Below are positions 9,627 through 55,740 of a stretch of DNA of 64,000 nucleotides, in pieces (position 1 is the first letter of the stretch; each line of letters starts with the position of its first letter). The stretch comes from Geothrix limicola. GTDB taxonomy: Bacteria; Acidobacteriota; Holophagae; Holophagales; Holophagaceae. Under the pieces are notes generated by a model that saw nothing but the letters and a program-made list of their open reading frames with translations, was not told where the DNA came from and searched no databases. The translations under genes and the position numbers were made by a program. The DNA is taken from positions 186,001-250,000 of the forward strand of contig NZ_BSDE01000005.1 of assembly GCF_030268085.1 (NCBI RefSeq), read 5' to 3'.

Positions 9627-11934
9627 CTCGGGCAATCCGAAATCCAGCCACCCCGAGCTGACGCCCTTGGAGACGGCCCCTCCCCGAGTCGAGGCGCCGC
9701 CTTCCGTCTCCGGCGGGCTTCCGTCCGTGCTCTCGGCCACCAGGCACGCCCTGGCCGAGATGGGGCCCCTGCGCGGCACGAAGGAGCTGCTGAAGGTGAA
9801 CCAGCGCGACGGCTTCGACTGTCCGGGCTGCGCCTGGCCCGATCCCGACGACCGCCGCGACCTGGTGGAATTCTGCGAGAACGGCGCCAAGGCCGTCGCC
9901 GAGGAGGCCACGACGAAGCGTGTAACGCCCGACTTCTTCGCGCGCCATGCCGTCGCGGAACTGGCCCAGTGGTCCGATTTCGAGATCGGGAAGGCGGGCC
10001 GCCTGACCCACCCCATGCTGCTGCGCGAAGGCGCCACCCACTACGCGCCGGTCACATGGGAAGAGGCCTTCGACATCCTCGCCGAGGAGCTTCGCGCCCT
10101 GCCCTCGCCGGATGAGGCCGTGTTCTACACCTCGGGCCGCGCGAGCAACGAGGCCGCCTTCGCCTACCAGCTCTTCGTCCGGATGTTCGGAACGAACAAC
10201 CTGCCGGACTGCTCGAACATGTGCCACGAATCCAGCGGCGTGGCGCTGAAGGAGACCCTGGGCGTCGGCAAGGGCTCCGTGAGCCTGGAGGATTTCCAGC
10301 ACGCCGACTGCATCCTCATCCTCGGCCAGAACCCCGGCACCAACCACCCCCGCATGCTCGCCACCCTCCAGGCCGCGGCCCAGCGAGGCGCCCGGATCAT
10401 CAGCCTCAACCCGCTGCTGGAGACTGGCCTCAAGTCCTTCGCCCACCCCCAAAAATTCTGGACCTGGATGGGCCGCGGCACGCCCATCGCCACCCTCCAT
10501 CTGCCGGTGAAAGTGAACGGCGACATCGCCGCCCTGAAGGGGCTCATGAAGCTGATGCTCGAAGCGGAAGACCGCGCCCCCGGCACCGTCTTCGACTTGG
10601 CCTTCATCGCCGAACACACCCGCGGCTTCGAAGCCTTCGTCGAGGCGCTCCGGGCAACTCGCTGGGAAGAGATCCTCGAAGCCTCGGGCCTCGAGCGGGA
10701 GCGCCTCGCGGCGGCGGCGGACCTCCTCATCGGATCCAAGGCCACCATCGCCTGCTGGGCCATGGGACTCACCCAGCAGACCAGCGCCGTGGGCTGCATC
10801 CAGGAGGTGGTGAATCTGCTAATGCTCGGGGGGCACCTGGGCCGCAAGGGCGCGGGCGTCTGCCCCGTGCGCGGCCACAGCAACGTGCAGGGCGACCGCA
10901 CCATGGGCATCCACGAGAAGCCGGGCGAGGCCTTCCTCGACGCGCTCCAACGCACCTTCCGCTTCGACCCGCCGCGCCACCATGGCCACGACACCGTTCA
11001 GGCCATCCGCGCCATGCACGAGGGCCGTGTCGGCGTCTTCTTCGCGCTGGGCGGCAACTTCCTGTCCGCGGCGCCGGACACGGCCTACACCGCCGAGGCC
11101 CTCCGCCGCACGCGGCTCACGGCCCACGTCTCCACCAAGCTCAACCGCTCCCACCTCGTCACGGGAAGGCGGGCCCTCATCCTGCCCTGCCTGGGGCGCA
11201 CCGAGGCGGATCACCAGGCCAGCGGCCCCCAGATCGTCAGCGTAGAGAATTCCATGGGCGTGATCTCGCCCTCCAGGGGCAACCTCGCGCCGGGTTCCGA
11301 GCATCTGCGCAGCGAGGTGGCCATCGTCGCGGGGCTGGCGGAAGCCGTGCTGGTGCGGGATCCAGCAGCCCCGACCGTCGACTGGAAGGCCTGGACGGCG
11401 AACTATGACCTGATCCGCGATCACATCGCGCAGGTGGTCCCGGGGTTCGAGGGCTACAACCGGCGCCTGCGCGAGGGTGGCTTCCACCTGCCCCATGCCG
11501 TGCGGGATCAACGCCATTTCGATACGCCCAGCGGCAAGGCCGAGTTCACCTGCCACGCCATCCCGCACCTGACGCTGCCCGAAGGCGGGTTGATCCTGAT
11601 GACCCTGCGCAGCCACGACCAGTTCAACACGACGATCTACGGCCTGGAGGACCGCTACCGCGGCGTCACCAAGGGGCGGCGCGTCATCTTCCTCAACGAG
11701 GCCGATCTGGCGCGCCGCGACCTCCTGCCGGGCCAGCGCGTGGACATCACCAGCCATTTCCAGGGCGAGACGCGCCGGGCCGAAGGCTTTTTCACCGTGC
11801 CCTACGAGATCCCCCAGGGCTGCGCCGCCGCCTACTTCCCCGAGGCCAACGTGCTGGTGCCCATCGGCCACGTCACGGGCCGGAGCCACACCCCGGCCTA
11901 CAAGAGCATACTCATCACACTCTCGCCCCACTGA
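9616..11934 (+). CDS. YdeP-type molybdopterin oxidoreductase (FdhF-like)
   Basis: 772 residues from a GTG start inside the end of fdhD (11-base overlap). The protein belongs to the YdeP group of the formate-dehydrogenase superfamily. It carries the family's CPGCAWPDP motif, the FYTSGRASNEAAFAYQLF cofactor-binding segment, NMCHESSG, and the ILGQNPGTNHPRM loop that binds one pterin. The C-terminal part (TYKSILITL region) has the molybdopterin dinucleotide-binding fold. There is no N-terminal [4Fe-4S] CxxC cluster of the full formate-dehydrogenase type and no Tat signal, so it is likely cytoplasmic. The substrate of YdeP proteins is not well settled, so I do not assign formate dehydrogenase activity. 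Confidence 0.9.
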   Translation: MSSSSGNPKSSHPELTPLETAPPRVEAPPSVSGGLPSVLSATRHALAEMGPLRGTKELLKVNQRDGFDCPGCAWPDPDDRRDLVEFCENGAKAVAEEATTKRVTPDFFARHAVAELAQWSDFEIGKAGRLTHPMLLREGATHYAPVTWEEAFDILAEELRALPSPDEAVFYTSGRASNEAAFAYQLFVRMFGTNNLPDCSNMCHESSGVALKETLGVGKGSVSLEDFQHADCILILGQNPGTNHPRMLATLQAAAQRGARIISLNPLLETGLKSFAHPQKFWTWMGRGTPIATLHLPVKVNGDIAALKGLMKLMLEAEDRAPGTVFDLAFIAEHTRGFEAFVEALRATRWEEILEASGLERERLAAAADLLIGSKATIACWAMGLTQQTSAVGCIQEVVNLLMLGGHLGRKGAGVCPVRGHSNVQGDRTMGIHEKPGEAFLDALQRTFRFDPPRHHGHDTVQAIRAMHEGRVGVFFALGGNFLSAAPDTAYTAEALRRTRLTAHVSTKLNRSHLVTGRRALILPCLGRTEADHQASGPQIVSVENSMGVISPSRGNLAPGSEHLRSEVAIVAGLAEAVLVRDPAAPTVDWKAWTANYDLIRDHIAQVVPGFEGYNRRLREGGFHLPHAVRDQRHFDTPSGKAEFTCHAIPHLTLPEGGLILMTLRSHDQFNTTIYGLEDRYRGVTKGRRVIFLNEADLARRDLLPGQRVDITSHFQGETRRAEGFFTVPYEIPQGCAAAYFPEANVLVPIGHVTGRSHTPAYKSILITLSPH

Positions 11935-11940
11935 GGGCCC

Positions 11941-12693
11941 ATGCCCACGTTCATCACCCTCGGCCGCCTGCCCGACTCGCCCGGTTCCATCCCCCGCGCC
12001 GCCCAGCTCGCGGGCTTGGCGCCTTCGGACGCGGCGCGCCTGCTCACGGGCACCTTCCCGCGCATCCTCCTGCGTGCCGCCGCGGAGCCCGAGGCCCTCG
12101 TTTCGGCCTTCACGGCGGAGGGCTTCGTGGCCTGGGCCTCGGATCTCGCCGAGGTGCCCACGGACGCCCAGCGCATCCTCGTGCGCAGCCTCGCCTGGAC
12201 CGAGGATGGATTCGTCGCACAGGATGCCCAGGGAGCCGAGCATGCCTGCCCCTTCGACGCTGTATGTCTGCTCCAGCGCGGGGCCCGCGTCCAGAGCACC
12301 CTGGAGGTCGAGAAGACGACGACGCGCAAGTTCGCCCTGGGCCGCGCGGTCATGAGCGGCGGCCTGATGCTGACCAAGCAGGTGACGCAGACGACGGAGC
12401 GCGCCACCCAGGCCAAGGAGCCCTTCCTGCTCATCCAGCGCGGGGATGGCGGCCCGGACCTGATGATCTACGAGCACCGCATGAGCTACCAGTGCCTGGG
12501 CGCGCAGATGGCCCAGGCCACCCTGGCCAACCTCGGCCTGCTGGCGGCGCGCTTCCAGAGCCTCGGCCCCCAGGCCCCCCTGGATGATCGCGTGGGCCGC
12601 CCGGGTTTCGTGGCGGGCCTGCCGCTCATGGCGGTGGATCCCGTGGATCTGGGCCTGCACCTCGTCTCCGAGGCCCGGCGCCGGGGCTGCTGA
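11941..12693 (+). CDS. Unknown protein, third gene after fdhD and the YdeP-like gene
   Basis: 250 residues, starting six bases after the YdeP-like stop, so almost certainly co-transcribed with it. I do not recognise the family. The sequence looks cytoplasmic, with no signal peptide and no clear membrane helix. The first half (GLAPSDAARLLTGTFPRILL) resembles a small alpha/beta segment that might bind a short motif. The middle (RKFALGRAVMSGGLMLTKQV) is amphipathic and basic. No metal-ligand cluster stands out. Its stop ends four bases from the convergent stop of glgB. Its position suggests an accessory or regulatory partner for the molybdoenzyme, which is inference only. Confidence 0.6.
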   Translation: MPTFITLGRLPDSPGSIPRAAQLAGLAPSDAARLLTGTFPRILLRAAAEPEALVSAFTAEGFVAWASDLAEVPTDAQRILVRSLAWTEDGFVAQDAQGAEHACPFDAVCLLQRGARVQSTLEVEKTTTRKFALGRAVMSGGLMLTKQVTQTTERATQAKEPFLLIQRGDGGPDLMIYEHRMSYQCLGAQMAQATLANLGLLAARFQSLGPQAPLDDRVGRPGFVAGLPLMAVDPVDLGLHLVSEARRRGC

Positions 12694-12697
12694 GGCG

Positions 12698-14875
12698 CTA
12701 CCTGGGCTTCAGCACCAGCACGCCGAGGGGCGGCAACGTGAGTGCCAGGGACCAGGAATGCCCCATCCAGGGAAGATCCTCGGCCCTCAGGTCCCGGTCT
12801 CCGTTGCCGACGTTGCCACCGCCGTAGCATTCCGCATCCGAATTGAAGAGCTCCTCGAAACCACTCCGCCAGGGCACGCCGATGCGGTAGCCATGGCGGG
12901 GCACCGGCGTGAGGTTGGCCACCACGATGAGGGCTTCCCCATCGCCGTGGCGGAGGAAGGACAGCACCGACTGCTGCGCGTCGTGGCAGTCGATCCACTC
13001 GAAGCCCTGCCACTCGAACTCGTGCTGATGAAGGGCCGAATGGCCGTGGTAGAGGGCGTTCAGATCCCGCACCATCCGCTGCAGGCCCCGGTGGAAGGGA
13101 TAGTCCAGCACGTACCAGTCCAGGACGCCATTGCTGTTCCATTCCAGCCCCTGGCCGAATTCCATGCCCATGAAGAGCAGCTTCTTGCCCGGGTGGGTGA
13201 ACTGGTAGGCGTAGAGGGCGCGCAGGTTCGCGAAGCGCTGCCACTCGTCGCCGGGCATCTTGTTCAGCATGGAGCCCTTGCCGTGCACCACCTCGTCGTG
13301 GCTGAAGGGCAGGATGAAGTTCTCGGTGAAGGCGTAGAGCATGCTGAAGGTCAGCAGGTCCTGGTGGTAGCTGCGGTGCACGGGTTCGTGCCCCATGTAG
13401 CGCAGCGTGTCGTTCATCCAGCCCATGTTCCATTTGAGGTCGAAGCCGAGGCCGCCCACATAGGTGGGCCGGCTCACCTGGGGCCACGAGGTGGATTCCT
13501 CGGCGACCATGAGGATGCCCGGACACTGTTCGTGGAGGATCCGGTTCATGTCCTGCAGGAACGCGATGGCCTGCAGGTTCTCCCGCCCGCCGTACTGGTT
13601 CGGAAGCCACGCGCCCTCCTGGCGGGAATAGTCGAGGTAGAGCATGGAGGCCACGGCATCCACGCGCAGGCCATCCACATGGAATTCCTCCAGCCAGAAG
13701 AGCGCGCTGGAAAGCAGGAAGTTCTTCACCTCGTTGCGCCCGAAGTTGAAGATCAGGGTGGACCAGTCCTGATGCTCTCCTAAGCGCGGATCCTCGTGCT
13801 CGTAGAGGGCCGTACCGTCGAAGCGCGCGAGGCCGTGGCCGTCCTTGGGGAAGTGGGCCGGCACCCAGTCCATGAGGACGCCGATGCCGTGGCGGTGGCA
13901 GTGGTCCACGAAGTAGCGGAAATCGTCGGGCGAGCCGAAGCGGCGCGTCGGCGCGTAGTAGCCGGTGGCCTGGTAGCCCCAGGAGGGGTCGTAGGGATAC
14001 TCCGTGATGGGCATCAGTTCGATGTGGCTGAACCCCATGTCGCGGACATAGTCCACCAGGCGGTGGGCCAATTCACGGTAGTTGAGGAAGCCACCATCGG
14101 CTTCCCGCTGCCAGGAACCCGGGTGCACTTCGTAGATGGACATGGGCGCGTGCTGCCAGTCCCGGTGGGCGCGCTGGCGCATCCATTCCCCGTCTCCCCA
14201 GGCATGCCTGGACCGCTCCGGCACGATGGCCGCCGTGCTCGGGCGCAGCTCGAAGCATTGCCCGTAGGGGTCCGTCTTGAGGAAGACCTGGCCCGTCTCG
14301 CGGTTGCGGATCTCGAACTTGTAGAGCAGCCCGGGCAGCAGGTCCGGAATGAAGAGCTCCCACACGCCGTGGCCGGGGTGGACGCGCATGGGGTGGCAGC
14401 GGCCGTCCCAGCGGTTGAAATCCCCCACCACGCTCACCCGCTCGGCATTGGGGGCCCACACCGCGAACAGCACGCCCGCCACGCCTTCGACCTCATGCTC
14501 GCGCGCCCCCAGCATCCGGTGGGCGCGCAGGTGGCTGCCCTCGCTGAACAGGTGCAGGTCGAACTCCGGGATCTGGGGCGGATAGGTGTAGGGATCATGG
14601 GCCACGGTCTCGCGACGCTCGCCATCCACCCAGATCAGGCGGTGGTGCTCGGGAAGGCGCTGGCCATTGCCCCGCCATTCGAAGAGGCCGCTGTCGCCCA
14701 CGCGTACGAGGGGATCCAGGTTTTCGAAAAGCAGCACCTCGCGCGCATGGGGTATGAAGGCCCGCACCACGGTCTCCGTGCCTGCCCCGTGGCGGCCGAG
14801 GATGGAGAAGGGGTCGTGGTGGCGCGCCTCGACGAGCCTGGACACCCCGGGATCCTCGGGGAGGCAAGCCCTCAT
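12698..14875 (-). CDS. glgB: 1,4-alpha-glucan branching enzyme
   Basis: 725 residues, full-length for GlgB. It cuts an alpha-1,4 chain and re-attaches it through an alpha-1,6 bond during glycogen synthesis in the cytoplasm. The order is N1 carbohydrate-binding module ([11 protein letters not shown], residues ~19-29), N2 module ([20 protein letters not shown]), the GH13 barrel (residues ~250-590), and an all-beta C-domain. Catalytic landmarks are visible: [11 protein letters not shown] with the nucleophile Asp, [11 protein letters not shown] with the acid-base Glu, and [14 protein letters not shown] with the transition-state Asp. No other glycogen gene is next to it here. The only neighbour on the same strand is a 101-residue unknown 24 bases upstream. 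Confidence 0.97.
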
Positions 14876-16447: not shown

Positions 16448-16900
16448 TCAGCACCCCGCCAGGGTCGGGTGGGGTGCAACCCCTTCGGTCGCGCACCAGT
16501 CCAGGTAGTCCTGCCGGGAGGCCCGGGCATCGGCCACGCGGACCAGGCGGCCCTCCGCATCGTAGTACTCGTTGCGGCCGTTCACTTCGATGTGCACGAT
16601 GCAGGGTTCGTCCCCGATGGCCTCCCAGCTGTCCTCGTTGCCCGCCGGTTCGTGGACATACATGCCGGGCCCGATGATCTCGCCCGTATCGAGACGCCGG
16701 GTGCCCGAGAGGTTGAAGGCGTGCACCTCGCCCGTGTGCCGGTGGCGAGGGATCACCGTGCCCGGCTCCAGGCGCAGCAGGAGCTGCCACCCGCTGAGGT
16801 CAGGAAAATAGGTGATGGGTTTGAAGGAGAGACCCGGTGCCAGCGGAATCCAGGCGATCCGGGCGGTATCGACGGGAAGGACGGAGGAGGCGGTGGTCAT
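16448..16900 (-). CDS. Cupin-domain protein (dihydroxyacetophenone dioxygenase-like)
   Basis: 150 residues from the ATG at 16900, chosen because AGGAG lies six bases upstream. A longer frame exists to 16999 but it covers the dyad in the promoter. The cupin core is PGTVIPRHRHTGEVHAFNLSG followed by GPGMYVHEPAGNEDSWEA, giving His ligands in the order expected for a mononuclear metal site. The overall pattern resembles the 2,4'-dihydroxyacetophenone dioxygenase group, but the substrate cannot be told. It is co-transcribed with DoxX. The unusual feature is a 9-bp inverted repeat just upstream (separate entry), which suggests a repressor-controlled operon. Confidence 0.75.
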   Translation of the reverse strand: MTTASSVLPVDTARIAWIPLAPGLSFKPITYFPDLSGWQLLLRLEPGTVIPRHRHTGEVHAFNLSGTRRLDTGEIIGPGMYVHEPAGNEDSWEAIGDEPCIVHIEVNGRNEYYDAEGRLVRVADARASRQDYLDWCATEGVAPHPTLAGC

Positions 16901-16955
16901 GGTGGCTCCTGGGAAGGTGGGGAGAAAACGTCCCAGGAGCATGGTCGGGCCCACA

Positions 16956-16998
16956 TGGTCTATCGAAAAGATCCATTTATGATTTTCTAGATAGACCA
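16956..16998. promoter_or_regulatory. Inverted repeat TGGTCTATC / GATAGACCA upstream of cupin-DoxX
   Basis: Exact 9-bp arms at 16956-16964 and 16990-16998, separated by 25 bases of AT-rich sequence, which is unusually AT-rich for this region. It sits 55 bases upstream of the cupin start and between the cupin gene and the alkA stop. The arms contain a TAGACC-type half site like those bound by some TetR-family regulators, but no such regulator gene lies beside it. It probably flanks the promoter of the cupin-DoxX operon. Confidence 0.5.
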
Positions 16999-17003
16999 CC
17001 CTG

Positions 17004-17870
17004 TCAGGCTGGCGTCCCCTTCAGGCCCGCCCAGAGATGGAAGGAGGCCATGCTGCGGTGAGGAGCGTAGGGGGCCATGAGCCGCGCCACCTCCCTGGGG
17101 CCGGGGCGGGCCTCCAGCTTCAGGCCCCGTTCCAGCGCGGTGGCCAGGGCGGAATCGCCCACGGGCACGCAGTCCGGCAGGCCCAGCCCGCGCATGAGCA
17201 CGTAGTGGCTCGTCCAGGGTCCGATGCCCTTTTCGGCGCACAACCGCGCATCGGCCTCGGCGAAATCCCAGGTGGCAAGGTCGTCCAGGGGCAGCCTTCC
17301 CGAGGCCACGGCGCCGCTGAGCGCGATGAGGCAGGCCGCCTTGGCCCGCGAGACCTGCATGGCGCCGAGTTCGTCGGGATCGGCCATGGCCAGATCCTGC
17401 GGACGGGGATGGGCCACGAGGCCGCCGACCTCGACCCCATAGCGGCTCAGGACGCGCTGGCGCAGCCGGAAGGCCAGGGCCAGGTTGATCTGCTGGCCGA
17501 GGATGGCCCAGACGAGGGCCTCGAAGGGCGTGGCCGTGAGCAGCACCCGCAGGCCCGGCCGCGCCTTCACGAGAGGCGCGAAGAGCTTGTCGCGGCGCAC
17601 CTTCACCTCGAAGGCGGAGGGATCCAGGTGCAGTCCGAGGAGGCGCCGCACCGTGGCCTCGGGCGCCGCGCCGCCGCCCGTCACCGAAGCGACGGCCTGG
17701 GAACCATCCAGGCGCACCGACAGCACCCGCGCGTGCCCGTCGATCCACAGGGCCTTGCGCAGGAGGCTTCCCGCCACGCGCTCCGAAGGGCTCGCCGGAT
17801 CACGCCCGTGGAAGGCCAGCGTGTCCGCCGAGCGGTAATCCTTCGGCAGGTTGAGTTCAAGATCGCTCAT
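17004..17870 (-). CDS. alkA: DNA-3-methyladenine glycosylase II (AlkA-type, HhH-GPD)
   Basis: 288 residues from the ATG at 17870, which follows a GGAAGGGGG site. AlkA removes 3-methyladenine, 7-methylguanine and other alkylated bases. The N-terminal AlkA domain is followed by the helix-hairpin-helix glycosylase core: PFEALVWAILGQQINLALAF (residue ~125 on), and CAEKGIGPWTSHYVLMRGLG (the hairpin), then CVPVGDSALATAL with the catalytic Asp. It is the last gene of a minus-strand block that begins with AraC-methyltransferase and the Ada metal domain. The upstream hydrolase stop is 61 bases away. The block therefore reads as a DNA-alkylation response operon. Confidence 0.9.
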   Translation of the reverse strand: MSDLELNLPKDYRSADTLAFHGRDPASPSERVAGSLLRKALWIDGHARVLSVRLDGSQAVASVTGGGAAPEATVRRLLGLHLDPSAFEVKVRRDKLFAPLVKARPGLRVLLTATPFEALVWAILGQQINLALAFRLRQRVLSRYGVEVGGLVAHPRPQDLAMADPDELGAMQVSRAKAACLIALSGAVASGRLPLDDLATWDFAEADARLCAEKGIGPWTSHYVLMRGLGLPDCVPVGDSALATALERGLKLEARPGPREVARLMAPYAPHRSMASFHLWAGLKGTPA

Positions 17871-17931
17871 GAAGGAGCCCCCTTCCAGCATTGGCCACAG
17901 GAGGCGGCTTGCCTAGGGTTCCGCATCGGCT

Positions 17932-18819
17932 TCATGCGGTGAGAAAGTCCCGCAGCAGGGGCAGCAGCGTGTCGGGCTCCTCCACGTGGGCGAAGGATCC
18001 GCTGCGCTCCAGCATGACGAAGCGGGCCTGCGGCGCGCAGCGTTTGAAGTCCATCTGCAGCTTGGGATAGAGGGCGCGGTCGTAGCGCCCCGCCAGGATG
18101 AGGGTGGGCATGGCGAGCTCTTTGAGCCGGGGCCTGAAATCCGGCAGCCGCGCCACTTCGCCGCCGATGATCCAGTCGATGTCGGCGCCGCAGAAGCGGA
18201 AGTAGAGGTCCATGTCCCGCGGGTTCACCTCCTCCGAAAGATCCGGCGGCGCGGCCCTGGAGGCGTCGAAGAAGCGGATGAGGGGCCGGTGCACCGCGAA
18301 GCAGGCGCGCATGCGTGGATCAGAAGACGGCACGCCTTCGGCCTTCAGTTCGAGGATGCGCTCCCACACCTCCGGGAACTGGAACTCGATCTCGCGGGCG
18401 ATGTTCGCGTGGTTGAGCTGCCACATCTCGGGGCTGTGCAGGGTGTTGGCCAGCACGAGACGCGCGACGCGCGTGGGGTGCGCGAGCGCGTGGGCCTGAG
18501 CCAGCAGACCGCCGTAGGAGAAGCCGTAGACGTTCCATCGCTCGAAGCCCAGAGCCTCTCTCAGGCCCTCCAGATCCGCCACGTCGCTTTCGAAGGTGAC
18601 CTTTCCATCCACCGGCGGCTCGGAGCGGCCGCGGCCGGCGTAGTCCACGTAGATGAGCTCGAACTGGTCCGCCAGCGGCGAGAAGGCGGGGTGCATGAGG
18701 AAGTGCGAATCGGCCGGGCCGCCCGTGAGGAGGACGAGGGGTTCGCCCCGTCCTTCGCGTTCGACCCAGAGACGCTTGCCGCGCACCTCGACGAATTGAC
18801 CGGGGGGATGGTGGATCAT
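17932..18819 (-). CDS. Alpha/beta hydrolase (proline iminopeptidase-like)
   Basis: 295 residues from the ATG at 18819, which overlaps the stop of the Ada metal domain by four bases (ATGA). The fold is clear: TGGPADSHFLMHP (oxyanion strand), VDYAGRGRSEPPV, the nucleophile elbow YGFSYGGLLAQAHA with Ser, AGRYDRALYP with the acid Asp, and GSFAHVEEPD with the catalytic His. All three catalytic residues are present. The family resembles proline iminopeptidases and other hydrolases of class S33, but the substrate is not known. Its place between two halves of the alkylation response is unusual. Whether it has a repair role or is simply carried on the transcript is not clear. Confidence 0.85.
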   Translation of the reverse strand: MIHHPPGQFVEVRGKRLWVEREGRGEPLVLLTGGPADSHFLMHPAFSPLADQFELIYVDYAGRGRSEPPVDGKVTFESDVADLEGLREALGFERWNVYGFSYGGLLAQAHALAHPTRVARLVLANTLHSPEMWQLNHANIAREIEFQFPEVWERILELKAEGVPSSDPRMRACFAVHRPLIRFFDASRAAPPDLSEEVNPRDMDLYFRFCGADIDWIIGGEVARLPDFRPRLKELAMPTLILAGRYDRALYPKLQMDFKRCAPQARFVMLERSGSFAHVEEPDTLLPLLRDFLTA

Positions 18820-47721: not shown

Positions 47722-49725
47722 TCAGAGGCCCAATTTTTGAAGCTTCCGATACAGGGTGTTCCTGGCCATCCCCAATTCCTGTGCGGCCCTGGTCATGTTG
47801 CCCTTCGAGGCGCGCAGGCAGGTCTGGATCTTTTCCCGCTCCTCCGCCATCAACTGTTCGCGAAGGCTGGCGGGTCCCTGAGTCCTGACCGGGCAGGAGA
47901 ACCCTGGAACCGCCGCGGGTGAGAGGGATTCCGAAGGATGCAGGATTTCCTCGGGAATCTCGCTCATGGAAAGCGCCGTGCCTTGGACAGAATGAATCAT
48001 GCGCTCGACGACATTCTGGAATTCCCGGATGTTGCCCGGCCAGGCATAGCCCTGCAGGATGTCGATCACACTCGGATCGATGCGCAGGCCAGAGATGCCC
48101 CTTCGGGCGGCGAACTTGTGGACGAATGCTTCCAGGAGCTCAGGAATGTCCTCCGGGTGCTCCCGCAGGGGCGGCAACTTGATCATGGAGACGTTGAGCC
48201 GGTAGAAGAGGTCCTGCCGAAAAGTCCCTTTCCGGATGTCCTCCCGCAGATCCTTGTGAGTCGCGCAGATGATCCGCACATCCACGAGGAAGGACCGGTC
48301 CCCGCCGAGGCGCGTGATGGTCTTGTCCTGTAGCACCCTGAGCAGCGCGATCTGCTGTTCCAGCGGCATGTCCCCGATCTCGTCGAGGAAGATCGTGCCG
48401 CCGCTGGCTAGCTCGAATTTCCCGGGGCGTCCCCCTCGGGCGGCCCCAGTGAAAGCCCCATCCTGATAGCCGAACAATTCGCTGGCGATGAGCTCCCTGG
48501 GGATGGCCCCGCAGTTCACGGCCACAAAGGGCCCTTTCCTGCGTTCCGATTGGTTGTGGATGGCGTGGGCGAACATTTCCTTGCCCGTTCCGCTCTCCCC
48601 GGTCAACAGCACATTGCTTTCGTTGGCCGAGGCCAGCTGACCCAGCTGGACGGCCCGCTGCAGCACCCCGCCCTGACCGAGGATGTCCTCGAAACGGAAG
48701 GTGGCCTGGGCTCCGCTGAAGCGGTTGATGAGCCGTTTGATCCGGTTGATGGGATTCACGAAAAGCACGGCCCCCTTGAGCACACCGCCTTCATCCAGGA
48801 TGGGCTTGCCGCTGACGATGCACTGGATGGCCCCCCGACCGGATTTCAGCTCCAGTTCCCGATCCAGAAATTCCTGGCCCCATTCCAGCAGCTCGCGAAT
48901 CGGCCCCAGATCCTGAATCAGGTCGGTCATCCGCTTGCCGGCGGCCTGCGGGCTGGAGATCGCCAGAAGGCGTTCGGCCACAGGATTGATCTGGGTGAGC
49001 GCACCGTCGACATCCAACACCAGCACCCCGTCCGTGACGGTGAGGAGGATGCTGGAAAGCCGGTTGTTCAGCAGTGTGAGTTCCTGGTTCTTCTGCCCCA
49101 GCTCCAGCTCGTGCTGGATGGCTTCCACGGCGGCCATCACGAGTCCGAGCGTGTGGATGTGGGTCTCATCCACGGGCCCACTCATGTCCAGCAGGCCAAT
49201 GGTCTTTCCCCTGGGATCCACGATGGGCGCCCCTGAGCAGGTCCACCGGTGGTGTTTCTGGCAGTAGTGCTCCGCTCCCGAAACCTGGAAGGGGCGACCC
49301 AGGACCAGCGGTGTACCAGCTCCATTGGTTCCCACTTCTCCTTCGGCCCAGAGCGCGCCCTTGTTCAGGTTCAGATCCTGGGAGGCCAGGATCCGGTCCT
49401 GATCCCCGACGGCCTCCAGCAGGTACCCTTGCTCATCGAAAAGCAGAACCACGAAACTGGACCCCGCCACCAGGCTGTACAGGTTCTCCATGAAGGGCTT
49501 GGCGACCCGGATGAGATCCTGCTTTCGCTCTGCCAGCGCGGCGAACGCAGCCGACCCCAACGCCAGCGTGGAGCGCCCGGCCAGTGGATCCACACCCGCG
49601 GCCTTGCAGCGGCGCCAGGACGCTTCCAACTCGAGTCCCAGGGCTCCTGGTTCAATCTTCCCCTCACGGATGAAGCGATCCCAAATCACCCAGCTTTCCG
49701 TGCTGCGGCCAGCTTGGTGCGCCAT
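47722..49725 (-). CDS. Sigma-54 activator with GAF and PAS domains (AcoR-like)
   Basis: 667 residues from the ATG at 49725, chosen for a GGAGGGG site upstream. The frame extends further but overlaps the control region. Order: N-terminal GAF-like sensor (LEASWRRCKAAGVDPLAGR, then GAPIVDPRGKTIGLLDMSGP), PAS (LLTVTDGVLVLDVDGALTQI), AAA+ domain (GESGTGKE, LFGYQDGAFTGAARGGRPG, GGTIFLDEIGDM) and a Fis-type HTH (GNMTRAAQELGMARNTLYRK). The GAFTGA loop is intact. It looks like acetoin regulators (AcoR) and other redox or aldehyde sensors. It is divergent from the AOR operon, which has a sigma-54 promoter. Confidence 0.9.
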   Translation of the reverse strand: MAHQAGRSTESWVIWDRFIREGKIEPGALGLELEASWRRCKAAGVDPLAGRSTLALGSAAFAALAERKQDLIRVAKPFMENLYSLVAGSSFVVLLFDEQGYLLEAVGDQDRILASQDLNLNKGALWAEGEVGTNGAGTPLVLGRPFQVSGAEHYCQKHHRWTCSGAPIVDPRGKTIGLLDMSGPVDETHIHTLGLVMAAVEAIQHELELGQKNQELTLLNNRLSSILLTVTDGVLVLDVDGALTQINPVAERLLAISSPQAAGKRMTDLIQDLGPIRELLEWGQEFLDRELELKSGRGAIQCIVSGKPILDEGGVLKGAVLFVNPINRIKRLINRFSGAQATFRFEDILGQGGVLQRAVQLGQLASANESNVLLTGESGTGKEMFAHAIHNQSERRKGPFVAVNCGAIPRELIASELFGYQDGAFTGAARGGRPGKFELASGGTIFLDEIGDMPLEQQIALLRVLQDKTITRLGGDRSFLVDVRIICATHKDLREDIRKGTFRQDLFYRLNVSMIKLPPLREHPEDIPELLEAFVHKFAARRGISGLRIDPSVIDILQGYAWPGNIREFQNVVERMIHSVQGTALSMSEIPEEILHPSESLSPAAVPGFSCPVRTQGPASLREQLMAEEREKIQTCLRASKGNMTRAAQELGMARNTLYRKLQKLGL

Positions 49726-49767
49726 AGCCCCTCCGAAGGCAGGCTCATGCCTGGAATCGATCCACTC

Positions 49768-49794
49768 TGTTCCATATCGATACAATTCGGAACA
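49768..49794. promoter_or_regulatory. Inverted repeat TGTTCC-N15-GGAACA
   Basis: Exact 6-bp arms at 49768-49773 and 49789-49794. It lies about 200 bases upstream of the expected AOR transcription start, a normal distance for a sigma-54 enhancer site. It is a candidate binding site for the divergent activator. Confidence 0.5.
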
Positions 49795-49839
49795 AAAATG
49801 ATCAATAAGCAACACTTTTGCGCAAATAATCACAACCTT

Positions 49840-49858
49840 TTTCAATGACGCATTGAAA
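49840..49858. promoter_or_regulatory. Inverted repeat TTTCAATG-ACG-CATTGAAA
   Basis: Perfect 8-bp arms with a 3-base centre, about 125 bases upstream of the AOR transcription start. It is a second candidate enhancer element, and its sequence differs from the TGTTCC site. Confidence 0.5.
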
Positions 49859-49957
49859 CCATTTGAAAATCCTTTCACGTCTTTTTCTACGCTTCGAGAG
49901 AAGGGCAGATCTTCATAGACCCATCTATCAAGAATGAACTCCAAGGGCTTTAGGGCT

Positions 49958-49972
49958 CGGCACAGCTCCTGC
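49958..49972 (+). promoter_or_regulatory. Sigma-54 promoter of the AOR operon
   Basis: CGGCACAGCTCCTGC fits TGGCACG-N4-TTGC with three mismatches (first T to C, G to A and one T to C). The GG (49959-49960) and GC (49971-49972) are 10 bases apart, as required. Transcription would start near 49984, 30 bases before the AOR start codon. The neighbouring activator gene supports the call. Confidence 0.65.
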
Positions 49973-50013
49973 CATGACAAGAGACCAACTCATGGCCTTC
50001 AAGGAGAACCCCC

Positions 50014-51744
50014 ATGGACAAGATTCTGCGCGTGAATTTGAACGACCTGACCACCAGGGTCGAGGAGGTGCCCTCGGAGTGGGCCGGTCTCGGCGGCCGT
50101 GCCCTCACATCCACGATCGTGGCAAAGGAAGTCCCGCCCACCTGCCACGCCCTCGGACCCAACAACAAGCTGGTCTTCGCGCCGGGGCTGCTCTCAGGCA
50201 CCGCGTCGTCCAACTCGGGGCGTCTCTCTGCCGGCGCGAAGAGTCCGCTGACAGGGGGCATCAAGGAGAGCAACGTCGGCGGAACCGCCGCCCAGATGTT
50301 CGCGCGCCTCCGTATCCATGCCCTGATCATCGAAGGCATGCCCAAAGGCGATGGGTGGTACTCCCTCCGGATCAACAAGGAGGGTGTCTCGATCCAGGAA
50401 GAAACGGGGCTTCTGGGCCTGGGCAACTTCGCCGTCATCGATGCCCTCCAGTCCCTGCTCGGCAAGAAGACGGGCGTGATCGTCATCGGCCCGGTGGGTG
50501 AAATGAGGCTCTCCTCCGCGAACATCTCGGTGAAGGATCCCTCTGGCAAGATCCGCAGCCACGGCCGCGGCGGGCTTGGCGCCGTCATGGGCTCCAAGCG
50601 GATCAAGTTCATCTCCATCGATGACGAGGGCGCCCCGGGCATCCAGATCGCCGATCCGGAAAAATTCAAGGCGGCCTCCCGCGTCTTCACCAAGGCCCTG
50701 ATGGACCATCCCGTGAGCGGCCAGGGCCTTCCCACCTACGGCACGAATGTGCTCGTCAACATCCTCCACGAGGCGGGCGGCCTGCCCACCCGGAACTTCA
50801 CCTATGGCCAGTTCGACGGGCATGAGCAGATCTGCGGCGAAACGATGCACGACACCATCGTGGCGCGTGGCGGCAAGCCCAGGCACGGCTGCCATGCGGG
50901 CTGCGTCATCCAGTGCTCCCAGGTCTACAACGACAAGGACGGTCAGTACCTGACCTCCGGATTCGAGTACGAAACCATCTGGGGCCTGGGCGCCAACTGC
51001 CTCATCAAGGAACTGGACGACATCGCCCAGGCGGACAGCGTCATGGATGACCTGGGCATCGATTCCATCGAAACGGCCGTGGCCTTCGGTGTGGCCATGG
51101 AGGCGGGCCTCCTGCCCTGGGGTGACGGGAAGGAGGTGGTCCGCATCCTGCGCGACGAGATCGGCAAGGGCACGGCCCTGGGTCGCGTGATCGGTTCCGG
51201 CGCGGGGGCCGTGGGGCGTACTTACGGCGTCACGCGAGTCCCCGTGGTGAAGAACCAGGCGATCCCGGCCTACGATCCCCGTTCCGTGAAGGGCATCGGC
51301 ATCACCTATTGCACCAGCCCCATGGGTGCGGATCACACGGCGGGTTACACCATCGCCACCAACATCCTCAACGTGGGCGGCCAGGTGGATCCGTTGAAAA
51401 AGGATGGGCAGATCGAACTCTCAAGAAACCTGCAGATCGCCACTGCCGCCATCGATTCCACGGGCATGTGCATTTTCATCGCCTTCCCGGCCCTCGATAT
51501 CCCCGAGTGCCTGCCGGCCCTCATCGACATGATCAACGCCCGGTTCGGCGCCAGCCTGACGGGGGATGACGTGGTGAACCTGGGCAAGACCATCCTGAAA
51601 ACCGAGCGGGCCTTCAACCTGGCCGCGGGACTGACCGCTGCCGACGACCGCCTGCCTGAATTCTTCAAATCCGATCCGGTCGCGCCGCACCAGGCCGTGT
51701 GGGATTTCACGAACGAGGAAATCGACGCATTCTGGGATTTCTGA
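50014..51744 (+). CDS. Aldehyde ferredoxin oxidoreductase (tungstopterin enzyme)
   Basis: 576 residues. It oxidises aldehydes to acids with ferredoxin as acceptor, or works in reverse. The N-terminal domain (VNLNDLTTRVEEVPSEWAGL, then GRALTSTIVAKEV) and the [4Fe-4S] motif RHGCHAGCVIQCS are visible. Cys293, Cys297 and Cys301 are spaced C-x3-C-x3-C, which defines a subgroup of AOR, and Cys in DSTGMCIFIAF is the fourth ligand. TYCTSPMGADHTAGYT is the pterin-binding segment. The substrate range is not known. A GGAG site precedes the ATG, and the MoaD-like gene starts one base after the stop. Confidence 0.92.
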   Translation: MDKILRVNLNDLTTRVEEVPSEWAGLGGRALTSTIVAKEVPPTCHALGPNNKLVFAPGLLSGTASSNSGRLSAGAKSPLTGGIKESNVGGTAAQMFARLRIHALIIEGMPKGDGWYSLRINKEGVSIQEETGLLGLGNFAVIDALQSLLGKKTGVIVIGPVGEMRLSSANISVKDPSGKIRSHGRGGLGAVMGSKRIKFISIDDEGAPGIQIADPEKFKAASRVFTKALMDHPVSGQGLPTYGTNVLVNILHEAGGLPTRNFTYGQFDGHEQICGETMHDTIVARGGKPRHGCHAGCVIQCSQVYNDKDGQYLTSGFEYETIWGLGANCLIKELDDIAQADSVMDDLGIDSIETAVAFGVAMEAGLLPWGDGKEVVRILRDEIGKGTALGRVIGSGAGAVGRTYGVTRVPVVKNQAIPAYDPRSVKGIGITYCTSPMGADHTAGYTIATNILNVGGQVDPLKKDGQIELSRNLQIATAAIDSTGMCIFIAFPALDIPECLPALIDMINARFGASLTGDDVVNLGKTILKTERAFNLAAGLTAADDRLPEFFKSDPVAPHQAVWDFTNEEIDAFWDF

Positions 51745-52715: not shown

Positions 52716-52958
52716 GCCATGGCTCCTTCAATCCGGAGGGTGCCTGGATTCCGGAGGCATCCGGATCCAGGGTATCCAGTCTGCCTCTGCGCCCTTCAAC
52801 GCCGGCATCGAAGCCAAGCACCTTGCCCATGAGGACCTAGGCCCCGACCAGGACCAGAAATACCTGGACAAGGGCCTTTCAATGACGTCATAGTCAGCTC
52901 TTCTTTTTCACATTCATCTCGTGCGCCCATCGCACCCTTACGCGAGAGTGGACTTTTC

Positions 52959-54149
52959 ATGTCCAGCATCCAATCCATCACCCATCGCAGGATCCTGAAC
53001 TCCCATGCGGACTTCACCACGGAGTTCCAGATCGAGTTCGAGGACGGTTCCACGGGGCGTGGCGCCTCGCCCAAGGGTGAAACCATCAGCATCTACGAGG
53101 ATCAGAACCTCGCCATCAACCCGCAGATCATCCTCGATCAGATGGATCAGGACGGATGCTTCCACAGGCCCTTCGATCAGGAGACCTTCGACGCCTACCT
53201 GGCCGGACGGATCGATCGCTTCGGAAGGAACAACGCCTTCAGCCTGTCCCTGGCCTTCTTCAAGGCCACGGAAGCCACTCGCTCTCCCTTCGATCTCTTC
53301 GGACGGCAGCCCGGGAAGCTCCAGGCGCCCCGGCTCTGCCTCAACATCCTGAACGGCGGATGGCACGCCTACACCAACCCCGTCCTCAGCGATTTCAGCG
53401 AGTTCATGCTCGTCGCCACCGACTCCGATCTGGCCACGGTCCTCGCCAGCCACCAGGCGATCCAGCGCGTGGTCAAGGAAAGGCTGCGCACCCTGGACAC
53501 CACGGTGATCTCGGGAAACCGCGTGCACACCTTCGCCGCCGCCGACAACCGCGCCGTCATCGAATTCCTGCTTTCGATCCGCGAGGGGCTCGGGTTGACC
53601 AAGCAGTTCGATCTGATGATCGACGCCTCGGCCTCCGACCTGTGGAAGGAGGGCCGCTACCGCCTCGCCCTCACGGATGGCTCGGCGCATACGAGCGACA
53701 GCTTCCGCGACTACTGGCAGGGCCTCATCCGCGACTACGGCCTCGTCTACCTCGAGGATCCCTTCCATGAAAACGATGAGGCGGCCTGGCGCGCGCTGAC
53801 GGCGGCCCAGACGACCTGCCGGATCATCGGCGACAATTTCTACTCCTCCGATGCCGAACGAATCGACCGGGGCGCCCAGGCGGCCTGCACCCATGGGGCC
53901 ATCGTGAAGCCGAACCAGGCGGGTTCAGTCACCGCCGTGCGCCGAGCCATCGATGCGGCCCGCCGCCACGGACAGATCATCATCTCGTCGCACCGGTCCA
54001 TCAGCACCGAAGAGACCTTCCTCTCGCTCCTGACCTGCATGGAAGGCGTGCCCTACATCAAGATCGGCCCCCTGGAGACGGACTACTCCTCCGTGGTCCG
54101 GCTCAACGAGATCGTCCGCCTGACAACTCAAAGCGAAGGACGCGCCTGA
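52959..54149 (+). CDS. Divergent enolase-superfamily paralogue
   Basis: 396 residues against ~430 for enolase. The alignment to E. coli enolase can be followed along the chain. Conserved: H136 (NGGWHAY, like H158), E148 (like E167), the Mg ligands D222, E266 and D292 (MIDAS, YLEDPFHENDE, IIGDNFY), K317 (IVKPNQAG, like K342), H345-R346-S347 (SSHRS) and K368. Lost: the DEGG motif with catalytic Glu208 is SGNRVHTF here, and the flexible SGASTG loop is KGETIS. So it is unlikely to be a glycolytic enolase. It is the first gene of a three-gene operon; its stop shares one base with the phosphatase start. Confidence 0.85.
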   Translation: MSSIQSITHRRILNSHADFTTEFQIEFEDGSTGRGASPKGETISIYEDQNLAINPQIILDQMDQDGCFHRPFDQETFDAYLAGRIDRFGRNNAFSLSLAFFKATEATRSPFDLFGRQPGKLQAPRLCLNILNGGWHAYTNPVLSDFSEFMLVATDSDLATVLASHQAIQRVVKERLRTLDTTVISGNRVHTFAAADNRAVIEFLLSIREGLGLTKQFDLMIDASASDLWKEGRYRLALTDGSAHTSDSFRDYWQGLIRDYGLVYLEDPFHENDEAAWRALTAAQTTCRIIGDNFYSSDAERIDRGAQAACTHGAIVKPNQAGSVTAVRRAIDAARRHGQIIISSHRSISTEETFLSLLTCMEGVPYIKIGPLETDYSSVVRLNEIVRLTTQSEGRA

Positions 54150-54772
54150 TGACGAAGACCAGCATCAGCACCCTGCGTCACGCCCGGACGACCTACAACG
54201 CGGAGAAGCGCTACGCCGGATCCATCGATGTGCCGCTGTCCGAGCAGGGTCGGCGCGAGGCCGAAGAGGCCGCCACGAAGATGAAGGGCCTCCGCTACGA
54301 CGCCATCGTCACTTCGCGCCTGCGCCGGGCCCGCGATACCGCCCAGTGCTTCCTCACCGAAGGCATGCCCTTCGTCCAGACCCGCCTCTGCAACGAGCGC
54401 TGCTTCGGCATCATGGAAGGTCTCACCTGGGACGATGTCCAGACCCTCGATCCGCCGGTGCTCATGATCTCCGTGGGGGGTGACCTGCACACGGTGAACC
54501 CGCTCCATGGCGAGCCCTTCGAGGAGGTCTGGGAGCGGGCCCGCAGGTTCCGCCGCCTGCTCTTTCGCCGCTTCCCGGGCCAGAAGGTGCTCGTCATTTC
54601 GCACGGCGTCTTCCTCCAGATGTTCCACGGCGTGCTTCGCGGGTCGAACTGCATCGAATCCCTGGCCCTCTTCCCCGCCAACCTGGAACTGCGTCGCTTC
54701 GAGTTCTCGGGAGAGCACCTGATCGAAGAATCCGCCGTCAAGCTGAGCGATGTGAACGAGGTGGCCTGGTGA
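54149..54772 (+). CDS. Histidine-phosphatase (phosphoglycerate mutase-like) protein
   Basis: 207 residues. The catalytic motif reads LRHARTTYN (Arg10-His11, with Ala in place of the usual Gly). The second His is in VISHGVFLQMF (His152). The sequence RLRRARDTAQCFL supplies the phosphate-binding Arg, and NERCFGIMEG the acid. This superfamily contains phosphoglycerate mutase and many small-molecule phosphatases. Together with the enolase-like gene it looks like a pathway acting on glycerate- or phosphonate-type compounds. It starts on the last base of the previous stop and its stop overlaps the next GTG start by four bases. Confidence 0.88.
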   Translation: MTKTSISTLRHARTTYNAEKRYAGSIDVPLSEQGRREAEEAATKMKGLRYDAIVTSRLRRARDTAQCFLTEGMPFVQTRLCNERCFGIMEGLTWDDVQTLDPPVLMISVGGDLHTVNPLHGEPFEEVWERARRFRRLLFRRFPGQKVLVISHGVFLQMFHGVLRGSNCIESLALFPANLELRRFEFSGEHLIEESAVKLSDVNEVAW

Positions 54773-55740
54773 CGGAGACCCGACCCCTGGCCTCCCGCTT
54801 TCGGGAGAGCCTGTACCGAGGCACAGGCCTGGCCTCGCTGCATGCCTACATCCGCAAGTGGGAGCCGCCGCCCTACCTGTATCCCATGCTCTACCGCCTC
54901 TCTCCAGTCCTGCTGGCCAAGATCCGCTACCGGATCGAGGGCGGGGGCTGGCTCGCGCTCGACCGCCCCCGCACCTTCGACGAGAAGCTGTTCTGGCTCA
55001 TGCTCTACTGGCGCCATCCCCTGAAGACCCAGTGCGCCGACAAGTTCGAGATGAGGCCCTACGTCGAGAGCCTCGGCTATGGGCGCCTGCTCGTGCCCCT
55101 CCTCGGCGTCTACGAACGCAGCTCCGACATCGACTTCGGTGCGCTGCCGGATCAATTCGTCCTGAAGTGCACCCACGGATGCGGCTTCAACCTCATCTGC
55201 CGGGACAAGAAGGATCTGGATATCGAGGCCACCCGCCGCCAGCTGGATGCCTGGATGAAGGTGGACTACGCCAAGGTGAATGGGGAGGTCCAGTACGCCC
55301 AGATCCAGCCGCGCATCACCTGCGAGCGCTTCCTGGACGGCGGCAACGGCAGCCTGCCCGCCGACTTCAAGCTGCACTGCTTCCATGGGCACCTCCAGTT
55401 CACGACGGTCTGCACGGGCCGCGGCGCGGATGGCCACGGGGCCGCCTATGACCACTACGACCGGGATTGGCAGAAGCAGGCGGCGATCTCGCGATCCGGC
55501 GTCCATCCGGAACGCTGGAGCGGCCCGCCGGACTGCTATGCGGAGATGCTCGAGGCCGCGGAGGCGCTGTCCCGGCCCTTCCCCTACGTCCGAATGGATT
55601 TCTACGCGGTCCGCGGTCAGGCCCTGCTGGGCGAGATGACCTTCACGCCCGCCGGGTGCATCGATACGGGCTACACGGACGAGGCCCAGGCCTACCTGGG
55701 GGGGCTCATCCAGCTGCCCGAGCGCTTGACCCGCCCCTAG
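54769..55740 (+). CDS. TupA-like ATP-grasp protein
   Basis: 323 residues from a GTG at 54769. It follows the ATPgrasp_TupA pattern: PRTFDEKLFWLMLYWRHPLK, then CADKFEMRPYVESLGYGRLL, LPDQFVLKCTHGCGFNLICR for nucleotide binding and YVRMDFYAVRGQALLGEMTF with the Mg-binding Glu, then TPAGC. ATP-grasp enzymes join a carboxylate to an amine through an acyl-phosphate. TupA relatives are known in teichuronopeptide and other cell-surface polymer gene sets. No glycosyltransferase lies nearby. The stop overlaps the convergent MBL gene by four bases. Confidence 0.85.
   Translation: MTETRPLASRFRESLYRGTGLASLHAYIRKWEPPPYLYPMLYRLSPVLLAKIRYRIEGGGWLALDRPRTFDEKLFWLMLYWRHPLKTQCADKFEMRPYVESLGYGRLLVPLLGVYERSSDIDFGALPDQFVLKCTHGCGFNLICRDKKDLDIEATRRQLDAWMKVDYAKVNGEVQYAQIQPRITCERFLDGGNGSLPADFKLHCFHGHLQFTTVCTGRGADGHGAAYDHYDRDWQKQAAISRSGVHPERWSGPPDCYAEMLEAAEALSRPFPYVRMDFYAVRGQALLGEMTFTPAGCIDTGYTDEAQAYLGGLIQLPERLTRP

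Follow-up and report, generated by a model that had tools for sequence, protein, structure and literature searches.

True enolases are, to our knowledge, regarded as almost uniform in function. The window, a stretch of 64,000 nucleotides (contig C5:186001-250000) from a 4.2 Mb genome of the genus Geothrix (Acidobacteriota), contains a trio of genes on the + strand, encoding an enolase-like protein of 396 aa (52959-54149), a histidine phosphatase (branch 1) of 207 aa (54149-54772), and a predicted TupA-like ATP-grasp carboxylate-amine ligase of 323 aa (54769-55740). The ORF coordinates confirmed that the genes overlap by 1 base and then by 4 bases, as stated in the initial annotation. In Pfam searches, the first protein matched Enolase_C (2e-28), with Enolase_N appearing below the threshold only, and the second matched His_Phos_1 (3e-36). 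The third was assigned to the ATP-grasp fold by its match to ATPgrasp_TupA (PF14305; 2e-40, 139.5 bits against a cut-off of 25), and its single-sequence structure prediction gave a pLDDT of 35. Neither Rfam families nor tRNAs were found within the window.

The enolase homologue had been described as keeping three metal ligands, both lysines, and the SHRS motif while lacking the DEGG Glu and the SGASTG loop, and both descriptions were confirmed by an alignment in which the nine members of the family were set against 46 other enolases, along with a smaller set. As in ordinary enolase (phosphopyruvate hydratase, TIGR01060/PF00113), the metal ligands D222, E266, and D292, the Lys base (K317), and the phosphate-binding S344-H345-R346-S347 were invariant across the family members, and the second Lys (K368), the loop-2 His136, and E148 (E168 in yeast) were all retained. 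In contrast, the DEGG Glu, which was found in 46/46 ordinary enolases, was present in 0/9 family members; the site was instead occupied by an invariant Asn (N187, 9/9) followed by Pro, Arg, or Ile, in a column that is ambiguous by one residue and in which neither candidate residue is acidic. In the window protein, the site of the enolase VGDEGG acid corresponds to S185-G-N-R-V189 (53511-53525, + strand), where no acidic residue is present. The Gln preceding the E168 equivalent (Gln163), likewise conserved in 46/46 ordinary enolases, was replaced by Ser or His in the covered family members, and the second Asp of the GDD motif was replaced by Asn. Loop 1 was also altered from PSGASTG to P-x-G-E-T-(I/V)-S in all eight members having an N-terminus, with Thr standing in for the metal-binding Ser; its equivalent in the window protein is P38-K-G-E-T-I-S-I-Y-E47 (53070-53099, + strand) in place of PSGASTGxxE. 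Furthermore, the family was distinguished by the specific invariant residues N187 and N293 and by three residues inserted into the WHAYTNPVLSDF loop (loop 2).

The predicted structure of the enolase-like protein adopted the enolase fold (mean pLDDT 86.6; TM-score of approximately 0.84 against E. coli enolase), with low confidence in loop 1 (residues 40-50). The protein is, however, about 30 residues shorter than enolase, and its score of 132 bits against the cut-off of 300 for the NCBIfam equivalog TIGR01060 placed it outside that family; in the same genome, an ordinary enolase encoded elsewhere scored 430 bits for Enolase_C, versus 101 for the enolase-like protein. In Mycobacterium tuberculosis enolase, Glu204, the counterpart of the DEGG Glu, acts on the C3 hydroxyl or water, and PEP co-crystallized with the E204A mutant was still unconverted in the crystal (PMC10619443). 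In the residue alignment, the groups for binding metal, carboxylate, and phosphate and for C2 deprotonation have been kept, whereas the surroundings of the C3 hydroxyl have changed.

The nine carriers, namely three Geothrix, four Chloroflexota, and two Latescibacterota, span three phyla, and eight of them possess a second, ordinary enolase, the ninth being an incomplete 1.5 Mb metagenome-assembled genome (MAG). In a tree of eight family members and 14 ordinary enolases, the enolase-like proteins formed one clade with 100/100 support, split from the ordinary enolases by a branch of approximately 4.9 changes per column. The family is rare, being found in 3/347 Acidobacteriota genomes, 2/400 Chloroflexota genomes, 3/298 genomes of one Chloroflexota class, and 2/80 genomes of a Latescibacterota sample. 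A degenerate-pattern scan of approximately 85,000 species genomes, which requires matches to short patterns of eight residues and misses divergent members, yielded five clear members (at least 53% identity). No additional members were detected in 597 Chloroflexota genomes partly overlapping the earlier sets, the plasmid search returned ordinary enolases only (27-29% identity), and the search of viral contigs returned no member. The enolase domain model matches this family, and its members could be mis-annotated as enolase.

The phosphatase gene lies directly after the enolase-like gene in 9/9 carriers. The conservation of the trio as a whole, a point raised with the initial annotation, therefore held for the first two genes, whereas the TupA-like gene occupied the third place only in the three Geothrix. 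The two proteins also diverged in parallel (Spearman 0.92 for pairwise identities, a coefficient that carries no valid p-value because the pairs are not independent). In the phosphatases, R10, H11, R60, E83, and H152 were invariant in the alignment, in agreement with membership of histidine phosphatase branch 1. The RHA in place of RHG seen in the window protein proved not to be distinctive, as RHG was present in 2/9 of the partner phosphatases. The nearest solved relatives were PhoE, PspA, and CobC, which resemble the partner in size and catalytic residues and match its profile over positions 5-168, but lack its family-specific conserved segments, such as VGxxxHxxNP, and its genetic tie to an enolase-like gene. 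In contrast, the dPGM chains matched the profile mainly at the N-terminal positions 5-99 and showed no full-length similarity. Because the phosphatases match most of the length and the mutases mainly the N-terminus, the partner is probably not a phosphoglycerate mutase.

Across the carriers, different genes can fill the third place. The TupA-like ATP-grasp gene of the three Geothrix genomes (the window genome and two further Geothrix with related copies) is replaced by a RimK-type ATP-grasp gene in L036, an asparagine-synthase-like gene in L034, a PaaK-like adenylating enzyme (AMP ligase) gene in L072, and a GNAT acyltransferase gene in L078; in L037, a serine/threonine dehydratase-like gene lies approximately 350 bases away, and in L035 no ligase directly follows the phosphatase. 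What the loci have in common is the formation of amide or acyl bonds in the setting of surface polymers. The proposed link of the ligase to cell-surface polymers was supported in two carriers: in L036, the RimK-type ligase is followed by a GINT1_N-domain protein, an O-antigen ligase-family protein (Wzy), and two glycosyltransferases, and in Geothrix G015, the trio continues into a DegT aminotransferase, an initiating sugar transferase, and more genes downstream, with a glycosyltransferase after the trio read as such by ORF inspection. Polysaccharide clusters surround L036 and L070, whereas no polysaccharide gene was found directly beside the trio in the window genome and G. rubra. Two side observations were made at these loci. 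The GINT1_N protein (glucosamine inositolphosphorylceramide transferase N-terminal domain; L036:11000-12634) is encoded immediately behind the RimK-type ligase, within a polysaccharide cluster of a bacterium. L072 encodes two proteins (10722-12887 and 16568-18316) with a common stretch, VFYFGGWSASIRDRLIASKPEYVILDLSTW, in the neighborhood of a flippase-like gene and the enolase-like pair; the former of these proteins matched no Pfam family at 0.001.

The earlier suggestion of a small pathway that would act on a phosphoglycerate-like compound and then ligate the product was supported. As the reading that we tentatively prefer, at a little under an even chance, we propose a two-enzyme module with an interchangeable ligase, in which a 2-phospho-acid would be deprotonated at C2 without dehydration, dephosphorylated, and joined by an amide to a surface polymer. 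Judging from the retained residues, the enolase-like protein would use two metals to bind a 2-phospho-carboxylate, of which 2-phosphoglycerate is the simplest candidate, and K317 would deprotonate C2, forming the enolate. Water would not be expelled, because the family lacks the acid and the Gln that deal with the C3 hydroxyl, and hence either the enolate would be reprotonated with inversion at C2, for instance from D- to L-2-phosphoglycerate, or the substrate would differ at C3. The phosphatase would then strip the phosphate, yielding a small hydroxy-acid, for instance a glycerate, and the third enzyme, the TupA-like ATP-grasp protein in the window, would activate a carboxylate for amide formation and so link the small molecule to a cell-surface polymer, at an amino sugar or at another group. 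The probable product of the module is a small acid for decoration of the cell surface, and the module may move horizontally with an exchangeable ligase as its partner. A monophyletic branch that keeps proton abstraction but systematically lacks the residues for expelling water, and that invariably has a phosphatase of its own beside it, would represent a clean case of re-used glycolytic chemistry, and the module offers a testable source of a surface decoration.

An analogous arrangement has been described for the Campylobacter jejuni capsule, in which the TupA-like domain of Cj1438 (Cj1438C) amidates glucuronate with serinol-P or ethanolamine-P and the phosphatase Cj1435 removes the phosphate after the amidation (PMC11800379, PMC13276843). 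By analogy, the present module would likewise make a small phosphorylated compound, dephosphorylate it, and join it through an amide. The likeness, namely a TupA-like amide ligase combined with a phosphatase whose target is a small phosphorylated decoration, is accompanied by differences, since no enolase homologue has been described in the Campylobacter system and its small molecule is serinol-P or ethanolamine-P. Because this precedent joins a phospho-amine to a uronic acid, opposite in polarity to the union of a small acid with an amine, the small molecule could instead supply the amine. Counted against the preferred reading are the dependence of the epimerization on the identity of the lost residues, the retained E148, which could still act as an acid, the lack of a neighboring polysaccharide gene at the two Geothrix loci mentioned above, and the exceptions L035 and L037. 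The literature search gave nothing useful on glycerate-decorated polysaccharides.

The phosphinothricin pathway contains enolase- and phosphoglycerate-mutase-like proteins, including carboxyphosphonoenolpyruvate synthase, a non-glycolytic enolase homologue. This background underlay the phosphonate branch of the initial annotation, according to which the enolase-like protein would resemble that synthase, with the phosphatase as its mutase partner; we consider this very improbable. No PEP mutase was recognized with the PF13714 profile and the EDKxxxxxNS motif in the carriers searched (all except G631 and G796, several being incomplete MAGs, with weak hits judged by motif only), and the signature was absent from all the fetched hits: the strong matches in the three Geothrix carriers were isocitrate lyases (KKCGHL), the rest were weak and below the cut-off, and two MAG carriers gave no PEP-mutase-family match at all. 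Since the PEP mutase motif is missing from the fetched hits and the partner resembles PhoE, PspA, and CobC rather than mutases, the main support for a phosphinothricin-type route is gone, and this route was rejected; the glycan genes that neighbor the pair in several carriers also speak against it. The literature search found nothing on an enolase with an ATP-grasp or phosphonate cluster.

The overall enolase fold would be in keeping with a second enolase that is ordinary or slightly divergent, or with a homologue that has lost catalysis and serves a regulatory role. Both versions are nevertheless improbable, as the Glu has been lost family-wide while the metal ligands, Lys base, and phosphate-binding residues stay, and the coupling to the phosphatase is strict; a changed chemistry fits better than either. 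Less improbable, but still unlikely, is that the enzyme makes or breaks a C3 bond with another leaving group or nucleophile, such as an amine whose addition to PEP would yield a phosphorylated beta-amino acid, or with a larger C3 substituent, and that the phosphatase frees the resulting amino acid. The retained E148 and H136 are compatible with this, the newly invariant N187 and N293 and the residues inserted into loop 2 point to remodeling of the C3 pocket, not to a loss of function, TupA ligases are known to use phospho-amines (PMC11800379, PMC13276843), and a freed amino acid would suit the ATP-grasp ligase as its amine. However, the loci share no aminotransferase, and direct evidence for ammonia or amine chemistry is lacking. 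In a broader formulation, which we regard as quite possible though short of probable, new chemistry would have arisen within the close enolase subgroup: dehydration would have been lost, leaving a 2-phospho-acid epimerase (or an enzyme adding an N-nucleophile to PEP) that, with its dedicated phosphatase, would supply surface glycans with an unusual acid or a beta-amino acid as an amide-linked decoration.

In the window, the trio lies at a variable insertion spot between the nitroreductase and MBL-fold genes (52716-55736). In six sister Geothrix (L082, L084, L087, L089, L091, and L094), a short gap is all that lies between these flanking genes, and other sisters hold other genes there, among them one for a transporter-like protein in L081, L088, and L107; FeoB and aldehyde:ferredoxin oxidoreductase genes lie beyond in several sisters whose locus extends far enough. 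Because the flanks adjoin in the former and other genes occupy the spot in the latter, the trio is most simply regarded as a cassette inserted there, and therefore its neighbors in the window do not belong to it. Among them, the aldehyde:ferredoxin oxidoreductase gene (50014-51744), which stays beside the nitroreductase gene in the sister genome G007 (L084), adjoins a long ORF for a sigma-54-type activator (47722-49980) on the opposite strand.
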